DNA from: Natronogracilivirga saccharolytica
GTDB lineage: Bacteria; Bacteroidota; Rhodothermia; Balneolales; Natronogracilivirgulaceae
Assembly: GCF_017921895.1 (NCBI RefSeq)
Contig: NZ_JAFIDN010000002.1
Span: 248,001 to 312,000, forward strand
Direction of reading: 5' to 3'
Length of the DNA: 64,000 nucleotides
In this document: in pieces, positions 47,316 through 64,000 of the stretch
Layout: the number at the start of each line of letters is the position of its first letter
Numbering within the stretch: position 1 is the stretch's first letter
The notes under the pieces: model-generated
Seen by the model: only the letters and a program-made list of their open reading frames with translations
What the model was told of the DNA's origin: nothing
Databases searched by the model: none
Program-made: the position numbers and the translations under genes

Positions 47316-50255
47316 TTATTTGACGAAAGTCATTTTGCGCGTCAGCGAGTAGCTGTCAGCGTCCAGGCGGTACAGATAAATACCGCTGGTGATTGCTGAA
47401 GCATCAAACCGGATGTCATATTGCCCCGGCTCGCGGAGCTGGTCGACCAACACGGCGATTTCGCGTCCAAGCACATCATAAACAGCCAGGCGTACATGTG
47501 AAGCCTCTGCGACGCTGTAGCGGATTCTGGTCGACGGATTGAACGGGTTCGGGTAGTTTTGTGCCAGTTCAAAAGCGGCAGGCACCTCACGGCCCGGACC
47601 ATCCACCCCGTCTCCTGCCCGCGTCGGAATGGTCCCCTGCCCCAGCCACGGATCAAACCGGGTGGTACCCACAATGGCGTCTCCGCTGCCCCCGGCAACC
47701 GTCTCTGTTACCGAATCCTCGACATCGCCCGACGGACCCGACGCACTGCCCCACCAGTTATTGCGTGCATCCGCATCGGGGCTCATATTGCCGGCATCCA
47801 GTCCGACAGCATTGGCCAGAAACTCATTATCTGCAAAAAATATGGGCGCATGTTCACCCTGAAGCAGCACGCCGGTGTCGTTGCCGGCAAACGTGTTCTC
47901 CACGATGGTTACAACTTCCGTGCCGGTTGTATTCAATCCGATCTGCAACCCGTCAAATGTGGTATTGCGGACGATCAGCGTGTCCGAAAATCCTGCCTGC
48001 ACACCCGCCGCCACATTCTCAAACGCCAGATCCTCGACAACCGCATATCCTCCCTGGAAGATAATGACCTGTCCCGGATCCGCCGGGATTTCGGGAAGCG
48101 TGTCCCCGCGCGAATAGAACAGCTCTTTGCCATTCACGGTGTTGCCGCTGATGAAATGGTCGTAGTTCTCGCTGGTTTCACCCACTATCAGGATACCTGT
48201 TTCAAAATCATTGTCGTGGATTCCCTGCCGGCGCCGGATTTCAGCCATATGGATGTCTATGGGATGTCCGGACAGGGTGTTTCCTTCAATTTGGGCGCTA
48301 TCGGCCAGGCGGTTATCCATATAGATACCGGTCAGGTCGTTGTCGGCGATGGTGTTGCCATTGATGTTGGCACCAGAAGCATCCGAGCCGATATAGATGC
48401 CGTATTCACTGTTCTCTTCAATGGTGTTACCGGTAATCGTCGCGCTGTTGGTAGAGTTGATTCTCACCCCGTGCCGCTCATTATGGCGGATCGTATTGTT
48501 CTCGTAGACAATGTTGCTGGAGATGAGTCTCCGCGTTCCCACCACAAGTCCATTCCCTTGATTGTGGGTTATTATGTTGTCTGAAATGGATCCCGTTCCC
48601 TCGAGATTGCCGGTTGAAATACCATTCGCGCCGTTGCGCAGCGCTGTGTTACCGATGACTTGCGGATTTCTCACCAGTCCCACACTCAGCCCGGTTCCAA
48701 TATTATCATTGGCCGTGTTGTTGCTGGCAACGGACCGGGCGGATCGTGAAACGACGATGCCGGTTCCGTTTTCGGTGGCCGTGTTGTTGATGACCGTGCC
48801 ATCGTGCGAGTTCCAGTTGTAAACGCCGTTATCGCCGTTGCCCACTGCGGTGTTACCGTCAAACGTAGAGTTTTCCGACCAGAAATAGACCATGCCGTTT
48901 TCTCCGTTGCCGGTCGCACTGCTGTTTTCCACCAGTGAGTGGGGCGATGACTCCAGAAACAGTCCGTCGTTTCCGTTGCTGTTGAATTCGCTTTCACGGA
49001 CGGTGGTTCTTTCAGATACCACCAGCCGGACACCCGTGAAGAGATGGTTCTCTGCGGTGATATTGGTGAGGGTCACATTGTCGCTGTAGGAGATCTGCAG
49101 CCCGATCGCCACATCCGAAAAGGAGAGGCCGGACAAGCTGAGGCCGTCGGAGTTGTGGATGATCACCTGCTGCGCGCCGGCGGGGACATCATCGGCAGTG
49201 ATGTTCTTTCCGTAGTACAACAACCCGCCGTTGACTGTGTTGTTCTCCATGGTGTGGTTGTAGTGGGTCTGTCCCGCTGTGAAATCAGAGCGGATGTTGT
49301 CCGGATCGATAACTATCCCTGTGCCCAGGTTGTTGTCATTGATGGTTGCGTAAGCGGACTCCACCATGTAGATGTCCGCATCGTGACCGGACAGGGTATT
49401 GCCCAGCAGTGATGTCTGGTGCGAAAATTCCTCCATTACAATGCCGTGCAGGCGGTTATCCGTAATGGTATTGTCCTCAATCACATTGCCAAGGGACTCT
49501 TCCAGATGGATGCCGTGCGTGTTGCCATCTGTGATCATGTTGCCGGCTACCATGATGGAGTCCGATTCCAGCAGATACACACCCGAGCCGTTATTCCCGG
49601 AAATCTCGTTGTTTAGTACGTTCATGTGCCGGGACCGGAGCAGCCGGATGCCATCGGAAGGATTCTCGCTGATGGTATTCAGGTCGATAAGAACCGAGTC
49701 CGATTCAGCAATCTCGATGCCAAAACCCTGACGGAATCCGAAGCGTTGGTCGGTCAACTCGTTTTCGGTGACATGAAGTCCGGGGGACCGAAACGCGGAA
49801 ACGGCTTTGCCGTTGTTGGTCATGTAGTTGCCGCGGATCACTACATCGGAACTGTTTTCCACTCTCACGCCATCATTACTGAAATTCCGAATCGTTAATC
49901 CAGAGATGACCGTGTTGCCGGTATCGGTGATCCGGATGCCGGTGTTGCCTCCTTCGATGACAGGTGCCGCGTCGTCATCCGCCGCCCGAAGGGTGAGATT
50001 GGGCGTGCTTATTTCAAGATCCTCCTCAAACGCGCCCGATTCAATGCAGATGACATCTCCGGATGATGCGGAATCGATCGCTTCCTGGATGGATTCACCG
50101 TTTTCGACGATTTTACTGCAAGTTCCGGTGATGGCGGGGGAATAGGCGGACGTTATGGCGAACACGGACGAGCCGGTTACCGTTATGATTGCTGCTGCAA
50201 ATAATATGAACAGGGTAGAGTTTGCCCTTATCAAGTAGTATTTGATGGATGGCAT
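47316..50255 (-). CDS. Secreted right-handed parallel beta-helix (NosD-like) protein with type IX sorting domain
   Basis: A 979-residue secreted protein. Signal peptide at about 6-34 (LFILFAAAIITVTGSSVFA). IVENGESIQEAIDSASSGDVICIESGAFEEDLEI is the classic entry to a pectate-lyase-like helix. About 800 residues of short rungs follow, with repeated GIxLxxSxxNxVxxNxxxxN patterns (ENNTIRHNERHGVRINSTNSATITGNTIEENSEYGIYIG). The C-terminal ~85 residues are a sorting domain (NYPNPFNPSTRIRYSV ... LTRKMTFVK). Such helices bind or cleave polysaccharides or act as adhesins; no catalytic Asp/Lys cluster was identified, so the activity is open. The start is ATG 50255; an upstream codon at 50303 precedes the signal peptide. 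Confidence 0.87.
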   Translation of the reverse strand: MPSIKYYLIRANSTLFILFAAAIITVTGSSVFAITSAYSPAITGTCSKIVENGESIQEAIDSASSGDVICIESGAFEEDLEISTPNLTLRAADDDAAPVIEGGNTGIRITDTGNTVISGLTIRNFSNDGVRVENSSDVVIRGNYMTNNGKAVSAFRSPGLHVTENELTDQRFGFRQGFGIEIAESDSVLIDLNTISENPSDGIRLLRSRHMNVLNNEISGNNGSGVYLLESDSIMVAGNMITDGNTHGIHLEESLGNVIEDNTITDNRLHGIVMEEFSHQTSLLGNTLSGHDADIYMVESAYATINDNNLGTGIVIDPDNIRSDFTAGQTHYNHTMENNTVNGGLLYYGKNITADDVPAGAQQVIIHNSDGLSLSGLSFSDVAIGLQISYSDNVTLTNITAENHLFTGVRLVVSERTTVRESEFNSNGNDGLFLESSPHSLVENSSATGNGENGMVYFWSENSTFDGNTAVGNGDNGVYNWNSHDGTVINNTATENGTGIVVSRSARSVASNNTANDNIGTGLSVGLVRNPQVIGNTALRNGANGISTGNLEGTGSISDNIITHNQGNGLVVGTRRLISSNIVYENNTIRHNERHGVRINSTNSATITGNTIEENSEYGIYIGSDASGANINGNTIADNDLTGIYMDNRLADSAQIEGNTLSGHPIDIHMAEIRRRQGIHDNDFETGILIVGETSENYDHFISGNTVNGKELFYSRGDTLPEIPADPGQVIIFQGGYAVVEDLAFENVAAGVQAGFSDTLIVRNTTFDGLQIGLNTTGTEVVTIVENTFAGNDTGVLLQGEHAPIFFADNEFLANAVGLDAGNMSPDADARNNWWGSASGPSGDVEDSVTETVAGGSGDAIVGTTRFDPWLGQGTIPTRAGDGVDGPGREVPAAFELAQNYPNPFNPSTRIRYSVAEASHVRLAVYDVLGREIAVLVDQLREPGQYDIRFDASAITSGIYLYRLDADSYSLTRKMTFVK

Positions 50256-50510
50256 TTTTCCTGGGTTGGATTTCGGTTGCCGGATCCAGCCGGGAGGATG
50301 CAATTGTACCGTTGGATGCCGTTGGCCGGATGATACTTCCCCTTCCCGTTTACCCCTGAGACCCTGTGGTATGGTTACCCCGGTTCCGTACTGACAATGT
50401 AAGGCTGGTCATTTACAATGTCAAACAGGTATCTCCCGTGAGTTTTATGGTGTAAATGTTCAGTACGGGATTGATGTTAAATCAAAAATGAAATCGCCGT
50501 TTGTCATGAA

Positions 50511-56699: not shown

Positions 56700-57605
56700 A
56701 TGATCACTAAGCCTCTAAATATAATCCTTATCCTGCTATTGCTGCCTGTTCTTCCTGCAGGTGCCGGCGGACTGTATGCTGATCAGGACGAAGAAATTGC
56801 AGGGCTGATTTCGTGCGAAGAACCCAAGGAAACCTATACAATTGAAGAGGGTGATCATTTGTTTGGAATTGCGGAAAAGTACGGAAGTGGTTTCCTGTGG
56901 GAGGCTATTTATGCGCTGAACGCAGACAGGATCGCCAATCCGCATTTTGTCCGGCCGGGCAAGACGCTCGAAATCCCGCATAAAGTCTACCGGTTTGAAG
57001 AAACCGGGATGACCGCCCAGCAGGTGCTTGACGATCCCTTCTGTGAATCATCACGGGTCCCGGTTGAATTCATAAATCTTGAGTACTCGGAAATCATGTA
57101 TGAGGACCGGCTGCTCACTTTTGTGCAAAACGAACTGGAAGCAAGAAGACAAAAAGAGCTTGAAAAGGAAGCAGAAGATACCGTCGGGGTGGAAGACGAA
57201 GAAGCGCTTGAAAAATTCAGGGAAGCATTTGAAGCTCTTGTGAGGGAGGAAGAACAGGAAGAGGAAACAGCAGAGCAAAGGCAGGCTGAAGCAGAGCAAA
57301 GAATGTTTGTGGAGATTGACGGAATGATCCATGATGAAACCAGGTCGAAGGTGGGCCGCGATTTCTACGATATATTCTACTCAAACTGGCAGCCTCCTGA
57401 AGAAGCTAGTAATTACTCCATCCGAATAACCGAACAGCCGGCCCCCAATCTTGGTACGATAGTTGCTGTAGAAGTGAACAATACGGAAACCTTCCGTACC
57501 CGTCTGCAGCCCAGATATGATTTAATTGAAGAAGCAAGTGAATTTGCGGTGCGCCGCACGTATATTTACCTGCGGGATCATCAACAGCAGTTTCAAATCT
57601 ACTGA
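56700..57605 (+). CDS. LysM-CsgE fusion, curli assembly protein
   Basis: A 301-residue exported protein with three parts. After a signal peptide (about 1-27), a LysM domain spans residues 45-93 (YTIEEGDHLFGIAEKYGSG, then NPHFVRPGKTLEIP). A Glu/Lys/Arg-rich, probably coiled-coil spacer runs about 140-202. A CsgE domain fills 203-301 (FVEIDGMIHDETRSKVGRDFYDIFYSNWQPP, then NYSIRITEQPAPNLGTIVAVEVNN). In enteric bacteria CsgE is a ~130-residue soluble periplasmic adaptor that caps the CsgG pore and delivers CsgA; it has no LysM. LysM domains bind peptidoglycan glycan, so this version would be wall-tethered. csgF starts 7 bp later. Confidence 0.85.
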   Translation: MITKPLNIILILLLLPVLPAGAGGLYADQDEEIAGLISCEEPKETYTIEEGDHLFGIAEKYGSGFLWEAIYALNADRIANPHFVRPGKTLEIPHKVYRFEETGMTAQQVLDDPFCESSRVPVEFINLEYSEIMYEDRLLTFVQNELEARRQKELEKEAEDTVGVEDEEALEKFREAFEALVREEEQEEETAEQRQAEAEQRMFVEIDGMIHDETRSKVGRDFYDIFYSNWQPPEEASNYSIRITEQPAPNLGTIVAVEVNNTETFRTRLQPRYDLIEEASEFAVRRTYIYLRDHQQQFQIY

Positions 57606-57612
57606 CAAAACT

Positions 57613-58044
57613 ATGCGAATCTACAGATCTGTACTAATTGCCGTAACGTTGCTCATGACAGCAGGAATCTTCACTGTAAGCCAGGCGCAACAGATGATAT
57701 ATGAGCCCAAAAATCCGGCATTCGGAGGCAATCCGGCCAACTACTCCTGGCTTAAAAACAGTGCCCAGACTCAAAACCAGCATGAAGAGACCAGAGATGC
57801 CCGGTTGGCCAGGGACCCGCTTCAGGATTTTCAGGCTTCACTGCAGCGCCAGGTTCTCTCACAGCTGACCCGTGATATTGTGCGGAGGCAGTTCGACCTT
57901 GAAGAAGGTGAAGTGATGGATGAGTCGCGCTTCGAGTTCGGTGAGTTTACCATTGACCTTCAGCCCGGTGTGGATGGTGTTACGGTTCTTATTTCCAACA
58001 TAATGACAGGTGAAGAAACAAGTATCACCGTTCCCAGTTTTTGA
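57613..58044 (+). CDS. csgF: Curli assembly protein CsgF
   Basis: A 143-residue exported protein. The signal peptide ends SQAQ (about residue 25). The mature N terminus is QMIYEPKNPAFGGNPANYSWLKNSAQTQN, a close match to the CsgF N-terminal segment that inserts into the CsgG channel (FQFRNPNFGGNP...LNSAQAQN in E. coli). The C-terminal half has the small beta domain ending FTIDLQPGVDGVTVLISNIMTGEETSITVPSF. In E. coli CsgF forms the second constriction of the pore and anchors the nucleator at the surface. The start is ATG 57613; an in-frame upstream codon (57526) lies within the LysM-CsgE gene. It sits between the csgE and csgG homologues, 6 bp before csgG. Confidence 0.93.
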   Translation: MRIYRSVLIAVTLLMTAGIFTVSQAQQMIYEPKNPAFGGNPANYSWLKNSAQTQNQHEETRDARLARDPLQDFQASLQRQVLSQLTRDIVRRQFDLEEGEVMDESRFEFGEFTIDLQPGVDGVTVLISNIMTGEETSITVPSF

Positions 58045-58050
58045 TATCAT

Positions 58051-59421
58051 ATGAAAATCCGATTTACACATATACTATTTTCAGTAGTTCTGGTCATTTT
58101 GGTGACCTCCTGCTCCGGGACCATGCGCCCGATGCATACCGAACCGGTTGAACACGGTGTGCTAAGCAGATCCAATGAAGCACTGCGTTCGCTGCCGGAA
58201 CCAGAAGAGAAAATTGTTGCGGCTGTGTACCGCTTCAGGGATCAGACCGGCCAGTATAAACCGTCGGACCGGGTGGCAAGCTGGTCAACAGCTGTTACAC
58301 AGGGGGCAACATCTATCCTTATCAAGGCCATGGAGGACTCCGGCTGGTTTACCGCCATTGAGCGTGAGAGCATTTCGAACCTTCTGAATGAGCGTCAGAT
58401 TATTCAGAATATTCGCCAGCAGCATTCAGGTGGCCAGGTAAGTCCTCTCCCGCCTTTGCTGTTCGCCGGAGTGATGCTGGAGGGAGGTATTATCGGATAT
58501 GATACCAATATCATTACCGGCGGAGCAGGTGCGCGATATCTTGGCATCGGTGGTTCCAGTAAATACCGCAAGGACCAGGTCACTATTTATCTCCGGGCTG
58601 TTTCTACGCAAAGCGGCCGCATTTTGAAAACGGTGCATACTACCAAGTCAATCCTGTCCCAGCAGCTTGAAAGCGGAGTATTTAAATTTGTTGATACGAA
58701 CAAGCTGCTTGAAGCTGAAACGGGATATACCTATAACGAACCTCCTGTTATGGCTGTAACAGAGGCAATAGATGAAGCCGTGAAGAAGCTGGTCCTTGAA
58801 GGAATTGAGGAAGGACTCTGGGGTGCAAAGGATGATGATGAGGTGATGGCTTATCGCGAACAGTTTGACTACGAAAAGAAAGTACAGCGTCAGCTGGAGC
58901 GCGATTATTTCGGATTTACAAACAGACCGGACTATCGTGGTGGCTGGTCGCTTATTACCAGCGCCTCAATGGGCAGTATTATAGGGAACTACAATAACCC
59001 TGAAGTCAATCCCGGATTTTCTATGATGATTGAACGTGGCCTGACACCGCACTTTTCGCTTCAGGCCCGCGGTGAGAGAACCAGAATCAGCGCTCAGGAT
59101 GCTTACTCAAGTCCGGTCAATGCAGCTGATCTGTCATTGAATATGTATGTCCTGCCGGATTACAGGCTCACCCCTTTCTTCTCTGGAGGAGTGGGGTCAT
59201 TTGCATTTGACAGAAAATTTGACGGTCAGGATGACAGATTTTTCCCATATGTGGCAGCTGAAGGTGGACTTGATTTCAGGTTCAACAGAAATTTTGGAGT
59301 TCGTGTCAGTTCCAGCTACCGGTATCTTATGTTAGACGGACTTGACGGGGTCTCGATGGGCAAATACAACGATCAGCACTGGGGTGTTAACGTTGGTTTT
59401 GTAATAAATCCGGCTTACTGA
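58051..59421 (+). CDS. csgG: CsgG curli secretion channel with C-terminal barrel-like extension
   Basis: A 456-residue lipoprotein (lipobox VTSC, Cys21). Residues ~22-258 are CsgG: AAVYRFRDQTGQYKPSD, then AVTQGATSILIKAMEDSGWFTAIERESISNLLNERQII, and MLEGGIIGYDTNIITGGAGARYLGIGGSS. The last is the transmembrane hairpin region of the nonameric export pore. KSILSQQLESGVFKFVDTNKLLEAETGYT and GIEEGLWG end the domain where E. coli CsgG (277 residues) stops. Here about 160 further residues follow a charged linker. They show alternating strands typical of an eight-stranded OmpA/OmpW-like barrel (GWSLITSASMGSIIG, FSLQARGERTRI, GLDFRFNRNFGVRVSSSYRYL, HWGVNVGFVINPAY). The fusion is continuous, with no stop or frameshift. 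Confidence 0.92.
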   Translation: MKIRFTHILFSVVLVILVTSCSGTMRPMHTEPVEHGVLSRSNEALRSLPEPEEKIVAAVYRFRDQTGQYKPSDRVASWSTAVTQGATSILIKAMEDSGWFTAIERESISNLLNERQIIQNIRQQHSGGQVSPLPPLLFAGVMLEGGIIGYDTNIITGGAGARYLGIGGSSKYRKDQVTIYLRAVSTQSGRILKTVHTTKSILSQQLESGVFKFVDTNKLLEAETGYTYNEPPVMAVTEAIDEAVKKLVLEGIEEGLWGAKDDDEVMAYREQFDYEKKVQRQLERDYFGFTNRPDYRGGWSLITSASMGSIIGNYNNPEVNPGFSMMIERGLTPHFSLQARGERTRISAQDAYSSPVNAADLSLNMYVLPDYRLTPFFSGGVGSFAFDRKFDGQDDRFFPYVAAEGGLDFRFNRNFGVRVSSSYRYLMLDGLDGVSMGKYNDQHWGVNVGFVINPAY

Positions 59422-59516: not shown

Positions 59517-59632
59517 ATAAGACTTGTAAACAAAAATTAAAAAAAAATCATAAATAATCTACCTTTTTACAGGAGTTTTTTTTAACCGATGTGATTTTAG
59601 AAAAACTAAGCGCCTGGTGCCTTAAAAAAACA

Positions 59633-60472
59633 ATGAAATTCACTTTATTTGCCATAATACCGGCTTTCATGCTGCTGGCTTTCACAGGCAGCAATGAAGC
59701 AACTGTCAGTCAGCTGGGAAGTGTCAACGAAGCTTCCATAGAGCAGGTTGGCAGTGCGAATTATACGGCACTGGAACAGGAAGGTGCCGGAAGCAATGCG
59801 GATGTGGCACAAGCCGGCGGCGATCACTATGCCGATATAGTGCAGCAAGGCAGTCATGAGGTGTTTATTGAGCAGCAAGGCAGCGGAAACAGGGCAACAG
59901 TAGTTCAGCAGGAGGGTGACTCACAGGGCTCATTCCCGCCAGGGTCAGGTGATTCTGTACCGTTCATGAATGGTTCTGATGGAATGTACACCTCATCAGC
60001 ATATATAGATCAGATCGGAGAAGATAATGTGGTAAGCCTCGGGCAGTACGGGAGTCATTATGCGGAAATTTATCAGGATGGCAGCGGTAACCAGGCAAAC
60101 GTAATGCAGTCAGGGTACGGATCTGGTATTCCATTTGATCCGCCTGGCAAAGGCAGCCCCTCCCCCCCGCCGTTCTCCAATGGTTATGAAGGGAGCGGGT
60201 CTGTCGCCATGATTCATCAGGAAGGAGATGATAATGTGATCAATTTAAACCAGGATGGTTCTCACTATGCAGCTGTTGAGCAGCATGGAGGAGGAAACCA
60301 GGCTGAAATCAATCAGTACTATGGAAACAACGGTGCTGACTATGGTTCCTATGCCTGGATTACCCAGCACGGAGCAGACAATATGGTTGATGTGCACCAA
60401 TATGGTGGCGGACACTCTGCCGTGGTGGATCAATTTGGCAATGGAAACACAGCTATTGTAATTCAAAGGTAA
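59633..60472 (+). CDS. Curlin-repeat (CsgA/CsgB-type) amyloid subunit, first
   Basis: A 279-residue exported protein with signal peptide MKFTLFAIIPAFMLLAFTGS. The mature part is a chain of ~20-residue curlin repeats of the xxQxGxxNxAxIxQ type (VSQLGSVNEASIEQVGSANY at the start). Two Gly/Pro-rich inserts, near 59933-59995 and 60118-60205 (FPPGSGDSVPFMNGSDG and FDPPGKGSPSPPPFSNGYEG), break the array. From 60005, larger units of three repeats recur: IDQIGEDN, IHQEGDDN and ITQHGADN each open a unit (60005, 60212, 60359). Amyloid fibre formation is expected. The start is ATG 59633; GTG 59591 is in frame and would add a 14-residue leader. Confidence 0.88.
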   Translation: MKFTLFAIIPAFMLLAFTGSNEATVSQLGSVNEASIEQVGSANYTALEQEGAGSNADVAQAGGDHYADIVQQGSHEVFIEQQGSGNRATVVQQEGDSQGSFPPGSGDSVPFMNGSDGMYTSSAYIDQIGEDNVVSLGQYGSHYAEIYQDGSGNQANVMQSGYGSGIPFDPPGKGSPSPPPFSNGYEGSGSVAMIHQEGDDNVINLNQDGSHYAAVEQHGGGNQAEINQYYGNNGADYGSYAWITQHGADNMVDVHQYGGGHSAVVDQFGNGNTAIVIQR

Positions 60473-60515: not shown

Positions 60516-61322
60516 GTGAAAAAAATAATTACAACATTATTTGCAATTTTGCTGTCTTGTGGCGTTGTTCAGGCACAGGACAATGAAGCTGCAATACAAC
60601 AGCAAGGAGACATGCAGGATGCTGTAGTCCAGCAAATGGGCTCAGGCAACGATCTTTCTGTTTCCCAGATGCAGGATTTCAACTATGCCTGGCTAAGCCA
60701 GACGTCAAATGAGTCTGGTTCATCACGTGCCACAGTGACTCAGGAAGTGACTTCAGGGTCAGGGCAAAACCCGGAAAATGGCGGTCATGAAGTACGGCTG
60801 GAACAGGTTGGGAGCAATAAGGCTGAGATAGAACAAATTGGATTCGGGAATATTGTTTCCGGTTATGCGGGTGGCGATCCTGCAATGCAGCAGAGTACAA
60901 ATCAGAGGAACACACTCATCATCACACAACATGCCGGATGGTCGGTTACCGGAGTAAACCAAAAAACCGGCGGCAATGAAGCGTTCATATCACAAAGTGA
61001 CGGTGATAATCTGCAAATGCTTCTGCTTCAGGATGGTGAGGGCGGCAGTGCAGCAGAAATCATGCAGTCCGGGGATGAATCTGCCATCGATGTACATCAA
61101 ACCGGTGATGGCGGACATAACGTGACAATTAACCAGGGAATGGCGGGTGGCGATGCTGGTCAAAGCGGCATCATATTTCAGGATGGTTATGGTCATGAAG
61201 CGGTTTTAAATCAGTGGGGAAACGGAAATACAGCGACAATCATGCAGTATGTATCATCCAGCACCGCTTCTGTATCACAGGATGGAAGTTCAAACAGGGT
61301 TTCTATCAGTCAGGATAATTAA
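60516..61322 (+). CDS. Curlin-repeat (CsgA/CsgB-type) subunit, second
   Basis: A 268-residue exported protein with signal peptide MKKIITTLFAILLSCGVVQAQ. Curlin-type repeats are visible but more divergent than in the first subunit: NEAAIQQQGDMQDAVVQQMGSGND at the start, VRLEQVGSNKAEIEQIGFGN in the middle, and clearest at the end (AVLNQWGNGNTATIMQYVSSSTASVSQDGSSNRVSISQDN). Irregular segments (SGQNPENGGHE, PAMQQSTNQRNT) interrupt the array. It could be the minor or nucleator subunit, or a second major subunit; which is CsgA-like and which CsgB-like cannot be decided from sequence. It starts at GTG 60516, 43 bp after the first curlin gene. Confidence 0.85.
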   Translation: MKKIITTLFAILLSCGVVQAQDNEAAIQQQGDMQDAVVQQMGSGNDLSVSQMQDFNYAWLSQTSNESGSSRATVTQEVTSGSGQNPENGGHEVRLEQVGSNKAEIEQIGFGNIVSGYAGGDPAMQQSTNQRNTLIITQHAGWSVTGVNQKTGGNEAFISQSDGDNLQMLLLQDGEGGSAAEIMQSGDESAIDVHQTGDGGHNVTINQGMAGGDAGQSGIIFQDGYGHEAVLNQWGNGNTATIMQYVSSSTASVSQDGSSNRVSISQDN

Positions 61323-61380: not shown

Positions 61381-61929
61381 ATGAAAACACTTGCAATCAT
61401 ATCGGCCTTCCTGCTAACGGGATATACAAGTGTGCTATCCCAGAACAGCGAACGGGAAGTTTTTCCGGAACAAGTGTCCATTGATCATAATGAAGCTGTA
61501 AGAGGATTCAGTGGTGATTTTGTCACAATGAATCCAACAGCCGGCCGTACGGATGAAGATCTGCCTGAAACCTCGCAAAACACGGCAATCATATCGTTGA
61601 TCGGAATGGAAAACATGGTCATGCTTGAGCAAATCGGAAGTATGAACAGAGCCGCACTGTCTATTAATGGTGACGGTAACGATGCCGAATTCACCCAGAA
61701 TGGCATCGGAAATACCGCATCAGTTAATGTTGTTGGCAGCGATAACTTTATCAGAGGCTGGCAGGAAGGAAATTACAATCATATTGGTCTTAACTATGAA
61801 GGCTCCGGCACCCAGCAGCAAGTTCAGCAACTTGGCAATCATCAATCTGCTGAGTTCAACGGTGTAGGAATGCCGTTAACCATTACACAGTCCGGAGATG
61901 GTGCCCGGGTAATAATTGAAAACAGATAA
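61381..61929 (+). CDS. Curlin-like small secreted protein, third
   Basis: A 182-residue exported protein with signal peptide ending VLSQ (about residue 21). The N-terminal mature ~45 residues are non-repetitive. From about residue 68, four to five degenerate curlin-type repeats appear (NTAIISLIGMENMVMLEQIGSMNRAALSINGDGNDAEFTQNGIGN), and the protein ends PLTITQSGDGARVIIENR. Few repeats joined to a unique head fits a nucleator or capping subunit (CsgB-like), but no direct match is claimed. It lies 58 bp after the second curlin gene and belongs to the same gene row. Confidence 0.75.
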   Translation: MKTLAIISAFLLTGYTSVLSQNSEREVFPEQVSIDHNEAVRGFSGDFVTMNPTAGRTDEDLPETSQNTAIISLIGMENMVMLEQIGSMNRAALSINGDGNDAEFTQNGIGNTASVNVVGSDNFIRGWQEGNYNHIGLNYEGSGTQQQVQQLGNHQSAEFNGVGMPLTITQSGDGARVIIENR

Positions 61930-62677: not shown

Positions 62678-64000
62678 CTATTTAATTATTGTCATCTGGC
62701 GGGTTATGGATTTCTGACCGGCTGTCAGGCGGTACAGATAAATACCACTCGAGAGTTCAGCTGCGTCAAACTCAACACTGTGATACCCGGCCGTCTGTCT
62801 TCTGTTTACCGGCACTCCGATTCGTTGCCCGGTGACGGTAAATATTTCCAGTTTTACTTCTGCCTCAGACGGAAGGGCATAGGTGATTGTTGTGACCGGA
62901 TTGAACGGGTTGGGATAATTCTGATGCAATGTAACTGATGATGGTAACTCTTCTGTTGCTTCGATAAACGTCTCCATGACGGTCTGGAATGAAAACGTGT
63001 CAGACCATTCACTGGAAAGGGAGTCGCTATAAGCCCGCACCTGCCAGTAATAGTCAGTCATGTAATCCAGATCAGATACATTGTATGTGGTGTCTGAAAC
63101 CGTAACCTGATCGATCATCAGCTCGGAAAAGTCAGAATGTGCGGAAAGTTGAACGCGGTAACTGTCCGCTTCTGCCACAGAATACCATCGCAAGATAACA
63201 GCTGTTTCTACGTCTGCTGCACCATTATCCGGAAATGCAAGCTGAGGTGCCTCAGGAGGCACGGGAGAAGGCTCATCATCTTCCTGGATGGTGGTAAAGC
63301 TTCGGGGCCCTGACCAGTTACTTGTCCCCTGAAAATTGACACCGCGAACCCGCCACCAATATGTAGTCTCCTTCTCAAGTTCCATTTCCAACGTATATGT
63401 TTCAGATTCAATATCATTCAAATATGCAACCAGGTTTGAAAAATCACGGTCTGTTGCAATTTGAAGGTCATAAGTTTCCGCAAGTTCTCCCTCCCATGCA
63501 AATTCAGGTGTCAGCTCCACTTCAAGAGCGTCGTCTTCTGGCTGAACAAGTACAGGGACAGAAGGATCATCAGGGTCAGAAAAAGAGATTATGCCATCGT
63601 GCAAAAGAGCTGTAGGAGCTCCGGGCAGACCCGGATCATTGAAGGTGAGTTGCTGCAGATAGAGACCGGCAGAGGATCCGGCCGAAGCTTCCGGTCCTTC
63701 TGAAAATACAAGTTTTAAAAGCTGTCCCTCACCTTGCAATTCTTCAGTTCCGGCAGCCGCAATTTTCAACATGCCGTCACTGATATTAGAGCTGACGGAC
63801 ATGCCTTCGCTAATTGTTTCACCCGTTTCCAGACCCTGGAAATCAAGCATGGTCGTATCCAGTGCGATTTCCATTTCATAGGAAAAAATGCCCAGCCCGG
63901 ACACATCGTCAACGATCACGGGCAGTTCCGCTTCCAGGCCGGTGAAAAGGGTAATGTTTTTAAGCGAAGCGTTGATATCATGAACGACAATTTCGCTGGA
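62678..64000 (-). CDS. Secreted multidomain protein with type IX sorting domain, 5'-truncated by window edge
   Basis: At least 440 residues; the frame stays open to the window end, so the N terminus is missing. Order: a cohesin-like beta-sandwich (VDDVSGLGIFSYEMEIALDTTMLDFQGLETGE ... LLKLVFSEG), two fibronectin-III-like domains (PVLVQPEDDALEVELTPEFAWEG and PQLAFPDNGAADVETAVILRWYSV, each ending in WxVRxxxxxGxSxWSxxxSF). A C-terminal ~80-residue sorting domain follows (NYPNPFNPVTTITYALP ... ITRQMTIIK). Cohesin-like plus FN3 modules suggest binding or scaffolding at the cell surface. The gene is convergent with the curli operon, 70 bp away. Confidence 0.85.
   Translation of the reverse strand, partial: SSEIVVHDINASLKNITLFTGLEAELPVIVDDVSGLGIFSYEMEIALDTTMLDFQGLETGETISEGMSVSSNISDGMLKIAAAGTEELQGEGQLLKLVFSEGPEASAGSSAGLYLQQLTFNDPGLPGAPTALLHDGIISFSDPDDPSVPVLVQPEDDALEVELTPEFAWEGELAETYDLQIATDRDFSNLVAYLNDIESETYTLEMELEKETTYWWRVRGVNFQGTSNWSGPRSFTTIQEDDEPSPVPPEAPQLAFPDNGAADVETAVILRWYSVAEADSYRVQLSAHSDFSELMIDQVTVSDTTYNVSDLDYMTDYYWQVRAYSDSLSSEWSDTFSFQTVMETFIEATEELPSSVTLHQNYPNPFNPVTTITYALPSEAEVKLEIFTVTGQRIGVPVNRRQTAGYHSVEFDAAELSSGIYLYRLTAGQKSITRQMTIIK

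Follow-up and report, generated by a model that had tools for sequence, protein, structure and literature searches.

What does a LysM domain, a general binder of N-acetylglucosamine polymers, do at the N-terminus of the curli export adaptor CsgE? In enterobacteria, CsgE forms a soluble cap that binds only loosely, and it is CsgF and CsgB that attach the fibre to the cell. The question is raised by a gene of Natronogracilivirga saccharolytica (assembly GCF_017921895.1, contig NZ_JAFIDN010000002.1, positions 248,001-312,000 of the forward strand), a stretch of 64,000 nt that is called the window here and whose numbering is used throughout. The features of the locus are as follows.

56700-57605, forward strand: csgE, encoding a LysM-CsgE fusion of 301 aa in a single open frame with an ATG start and a TGA stop
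56700-56783, forward strand: signal peptide, approximately residues 1-28, without a lipobox (translation read by eye)
56832-56981, forward strand: LysM domain, residues 45-94 (Pfam PF01476, our own profile, AlphaFold2 model, Foldseek)
56982-57206, forward strand: variable linker, residues 95-169, acidic here, with a length and charge that vary among relatives (alignment)
57207-57239, forward strand: amphipathic helix LEKFREAFEAL, residues 170-180 (motif LxxFRxAFxxL, alignment)
57306-57602, forward strand: CsgE domain, residues 203-301 (Pfam PF10627, PDB 2na4)
57613-58044, forward strand: csgF (Pfam PF10614, E=2.7e-35)
58051-59421, forward strand: csgG, encoding a lipoprotein channel to whose C-terminus a further domain, similar to outer-membrane beta-barrels, is added (Pfam PF03783, E=3.5e-65)
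59591-60472, forward strand: curlin-repeat protein 1, CsgA/B-like (PF07012, E=7e-33, 8 stretches)
60516-61322, forward strand: curlin-repeat protein 2 (PF07012, E=1.7e-19)
61381-61929, forward strand: curlin-repeat protein 3 (PF07012, E=4.7e-9)

The LysM-CsgE fusion is a genuine part of a complete curli export operon and has been kept by selection across an order. The initial annotation had described one continuous frame that contains both LysM and CsgE and is directly followed by csgF and csgG, and these points were confirmed: the frame occupies exactly 56700-57605 on the forward strand and encodes 301 residues, csgF and csgG start at 57613 and 58051, and the profile searches that it had proposed for LysM (PF01476) and CsgE returned significant matches for both, each above the curated Pfam cut-off. 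LysM is matched at residues 46-93 (E=1.8e-7, 31.5 bits against a cut-off of 20.9, profile positions 1-43 of 43), and CsgE is matched at residues 206-297 (E=2.9e-20, 72.9 bits against a cut-off of 25, profile positions 1-92 of 105). The signal peptide, read by eye, has a lysine at position 4 and a leucine-rich core that is followed by ..GLYA/DQ. The gene is directly followed by csgF, csgG and the three curlin-repeat genes, the genome has no second CsgE, and relatives retain the order csgE-csgF-csgG, mostly with curlin genes nearby.

The LysM assignment is supported by further sequence searches. Our own LysM profile matches the protein with E=3.4e-25, a value that must be read with the protein itself in the seed of the profile, and the NCBIfam and PDB sequence searches agree; the best PDB match of the LysM is TsaP (3jc8, E=2.5e-4), and Kbp (7pvc, E=1.5e-3) is matched as well. 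An AlphaFold2 model of the fusion was built from three sequences and has a mean pLDDT of 49. In this structure prediction of the full protein alone, which had been proposed as a check, the LysM part is the most confident region (pLDDT approximately 64-75), and its elements E44-47, H54-60, H64-73 and E89-92 follow in the expected beta-alpha-alpha-beta order; the CsgE-domain part was too poor for use. A Foldseek search with this model returned LysM proteins as the top match and as several others with high probability, none below E=0.001, and several of these LysM structures match with an rmsd of 0.9-3 over approximately 52 columns. The LysM is flanked by two cysteines, C39 (56814-56816) and C115 (57042-57044), which are common to many relatives (L040 is without both) and may form a disulfide across the domain.

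According to published work, the CsgE of Escherichia coli assembles into nonamers, closes CsgG on its periplasmic side and transports the amyloid repeats of CsgA (PMC6957492, PMC6050966). The N. saccharolytica protein shares with the enterobacterial (type VIII) CsgE the PF10627 domain, the signal peptide, the position of csgE directly before csgF and csgG, and the curlin-repeat genes, and its PDB sequence match is E. coli CsgE itself (2na4, E=2.6e-6), whereas the E. coli protein is short and has neither the LysM nor the helix extension. The residues of the domain also differ. In E. coli, R43, R47 and W48 are described as important and highly conserved, and the two head arginines, R43 and R47, are reported to be 96-100% identical across 397 homologues (PMC6050966). 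In our MAFFT alignment, mapped by a reading of the numbering in that paper, these three positions are Q246, N250 and L251 in N. saccharolytica, while F79 is kept. The head arginines, a reported trait and not a definition of the family, are thus absent from this CsgE. Because R47, like W48, is replaced in nearly all of the Bacteroidota sampled, the reported percentage was probably obtained from homologues that were largely proteobacterial. Therefore, the head-centred charge model of CsgA binding may not hold for the CsgE proteins described here.

Compared with enterobacterial curli, the CsgG of N. saccharolytica has an extra C-terminal barrel-like domain (residues approximately 285-456), with weak matches to OMP_b-brl at 322-450 (E=0.0087) and to PorG (NF052316, E=3.5e-5). 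C-terminal extensions of this kind are general in the Rhodothermia and Bacteroidota sampled (loci L031-L056 and L084-L117). An AlphaFold2 model of CsgG from three sequences has a mean pLDDT of 30. Nine such barrel-like domains around one CsgG pore would make a striking outer-membrane assembly.

To place the fusion among its relatives, a search for CsgE was run over sets of genomes that overlap in part, and it gave matches in 46 of 245 genomes of the class, in 41 of 395 of the phylum, and in 11 of 164 and 6 of 249 from two further Bacteroidota orders; the proteins were read from their loci and scanned in groups, and the labels Balneolales and Rhodothermales were assigned from kinship groups and one named record (L031 and L032, Balneolales bacterium). 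Pfam detects LysM in 20 of the 27 short-type Balneolales proteins, the type to which the N. saccharolytica protein belongs, and our own profile finds it clearly in 21, in decayed form in three (L002, L011, L017) and not at all in three (L003, L005, L036). A second, long type of CsgE, of approximately 440-500 aa with the architecture DUF4168-LysM-CsgE (DUF4168 N-terminal to LysM), comes from the family of N. saccharolytica itself and is encoded in separate csgEFG loci (L049, L050, L052, L056); LysM is found in two of six long-type proteins by Pfam and in five of six by our own profile. By Pfam, none of 19 Rhodothermales and none of 24 other Bacteroidota CsgE proteins carries LysM, none of the newly fetched CsgE proteins from the two further orders scores with our own LysM profile, and a tblastn search of plasmids gave matches in the CsgE part only. 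The survey for the same fusion that had been proposed at the outset thus found LysM-CsgE throughout Balneolales and did not find it in the Rhodothermales or other Bacteroidota covered.

Several other parts were observed at the N-terminus of CsgE. In flavobacteria and their relatives, a CsgC-like (Tafi-CsgC) domain precedes CsgE in 8 of the 24 proteins scanned (best E=4.5e-5; some of L062, L066, L070-L079 and L081), so that a curlin chaperone and an export adaptor are joined in one protein. By eye, the CsgE proteins of one genus (L041, L042, L043) have a long linker as well as a lipobox (LTGC, LSGC or LAAC, with Asp at +2), and the CsgE of L013 has an apparently uncleaved N-terminal membrane helix. 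These observations suggest that different lineages use the N-terminus of CsgE as an attachment site for different parts.

A tree of the concatenated CsgE domain, CsgF and CsgG places the short-type Balneolales sequences in one clade (support 100/99) and the long type in a separate clade (100/100). The tree prefers two origins of LysM, one in the short and one in the long form, over a single one, although a topology that unites the two types is still acceptable (p-AU 0.082). The short clade has seen several cases of decay or loss of LysM. The domain is under purifying selection: pairwise dN/dS is 0.09-0.46 in close pairs with usable dS, ratios that are rough because dS is near saturation in many pairs, and the amino-acid identity of LysM usually lies between that of the linker (lower) and that of the CsgE domain (higher). 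The LysM core motif (GDxL, NPxxIxPGQxLxIP) is retained in most members. The fusion is a real and inherited variant of the known curli system in Balneolales. No relevant paper on CsgE together with LysM was found in the open-access literature, and the main survey of curli diversity makes no mention of LysM (PMC3521004); the architecture may be listed in subscription papers or in protein databases.

The stretch between LysM and CsgE had been annotated as a Glu-rich coiled-coil spacer (residues 140-202) that spans a gap, and this description was not supported. The best 28-residue heptad score of residues 140-202 is no better than that of shuffled sequences (918 of 1000 shuffles were as good), and the coiled coil is rejected as stated; the AlphaFold2 model predicts helices at residues 139-160 and 167-199 with low confidence. 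Moreover, the linker measures 47-117 residues among relatives, and a strut of fixed length is therefore rejected; its net charge ranges from -23 to +8, and Glu-richness, not being conserved, was likewise rejected as a functional trait. The sole conserved part of this stretch is the helix LxxFRxAFxxL, which a strict pattern finds in 23 of the 27 short-type Balneolales proteins and which it did not find in the other Bacteroidota CsgE proteins sampled. Its residues R174 and F177 are at least 90% conserved, and it lies mostly 13-20 residues (7-28 overall) before the CsgE domain and 24 to 90 residues from LysM. The helix is kept in the three LysM-less proteins, L003 and L005 (by eye) and L036. Because it persists where LysM has been lost, it belongs to the CsgE module, in which it is a candidate for an oligomer contact or a contact with CsgG or curlin.

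How would such a protein work? We consider the best reading, with a probability of approximately 0.6, to be that LysM was added to the N-terminus of CsgE early in Balneolales and tethers the CsgE cap, and thereby CsgG, to peptidoglycan. After export, LysM would bind the glycan strands of peptidoglycan and would be joined through the flexible linker of variable length and the short amphipathic helix to the CsgE domain, which would cap the periplasmic mouth of CsgG and pass unfolded curlin subunits on to it. Should nine subunits make up the cap, as they do in E. coli, nine LysM domains would be presented, and together they would keep the cap, and with it the channel, at the wall even if each bound weakly. 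We infer wall binding, the nonameric cap and the anchoring of CsgG. Secretins, which are also outer-membrane secretion rings, are held to the wall by the LysM protein TsaP and by the AMIN domains of PilQ (PMC10653833), and TsaP is the best PDB match of our LysM. In both cases, a part of a wall-binding type is attached, on the periplasmic side, to a component of a ring that exports across the outer membrane, although the match to TsaP is confined to LysM (query residues 41-90) and the partner domain here is CsgE and the channel CsgG, not a secretin. A second likeness is to FapF of the Pseudomonas Fap system, which also serves amyloid export and whose N-terminus extends into the periplasm as a helical part joined by a flexible linker; its authors propose that this part could interact with peptidoglycan or anchor beneath it (PMC5557850). 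However, in FapF it is the channel that bears the extension, which forms a genuine trimeric coiled coil, and LysM is absent from its description; we do not claim homology. The lipobox and the membrane helix on other Rhodothermia CsgE proteins would also fit a recurrent advantage of anchoring CsgE. Against the tether, we count the three relatives that have lost LysM and the three with decayed copies, all of which keep csgE, as well as the variable length of the linker and the AlphaFold2 model, in which no part other than LysM reaches even moderate confidence. Because several relatives without an intact LysM keep csgEFG, the tether would be an add-on that is not essential to the machine, and the losses argue that LysM improves secretion and does not enable it. 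Furthermore, purified CsgFG of E. coli showed no bound CsgE (PMC6957492), and with such a dynamic cap it is uncertain whether CsgE could tether the channel permanently.

That the fusion is an artefact or a chance event, or that LysM is a decaying passenger, is very improbable: decay or loss in six of the 27 short-type relatives would fit a passenger, but the same architecture occurs in many independent genomes and contigs, which rejects an assembly artefact, and the supported clade and the purifying selection speak against the remainder. A more serious alternative, which we nevertheless regard as unlikely, is that LysM binds the wall to place the machine and not to hold it, recruiting CsgE and then CsgG assembly to particular peptidoglycan, such as that of poles or septa, so that curli would appear at defined positions. 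In Myxococcus and Pseudomonas, PilQ is placed in this manner by its AMIN domains, whose presence differs between species along with the piliation pattern (PMC10653833). The patchy loss of LysM within Balneolales would likewise fit a changed pattern. However, CsgG is a lipoprotein channel that is not known to depend on CsgE for its placement. Somewhat less probable still is an action of LysM away from the wall, on another glycan (exopolysaccharide or a substrate-bound sugar), on a protein of the curli pathway, or as an aid to the folding or oligomerisation of CsgE. Its general affinity for N-acetylglucosamine polymers would allow such ligands, its closest types include the potassium-binding Kbp, and the CsgC-like fusion of Flavobacteriia, which shares with ours a domain added to the N-terminus of CsgE in a csgEFG locus but adds a curlin-chaperone-like domain in place of a wall binder, indicates that N-terminal additions need not be anchors. 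Against this, the plain signal peptide points to a periplasmic site of work, where peptidoglycan is an abundant ligand, and the core motif of LysM is retained in most members.

If the wall tether is correct, it adds a mechanical and positional element that has not been described for curli and that parallels secretin-based pili and type II secretion. This natural CsgE could then be purified on sacculi as a means to trap the CsgE-CsgG complex, and the LysM-less relatives provide a natural comparison. A wider proposal, to which we give slightly less than an even chance, is that the curli machine of Balneolales is wall-anchored as a whole: a ring of CsgE subunits that each bear a LysM would tie every CsgG to the wall, the secretion sites would be immobile and the fibres mechanically coupled to the wall. 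Rhodothermia may have evolved anchors for CsgE repeatedly and by different means, namely, LysM in the short type, DUF4168-LysM in the long type, a lipid anchor and a membrane helix.

Elsewhere in the window, the reverse-strand genes at 47316-50303 and 62678-63919 encode secreted proteins of large size that, as judged by eye, contain repeats of a NosD-like or FN3-like kind and end in a type IX secretion sorting tail.
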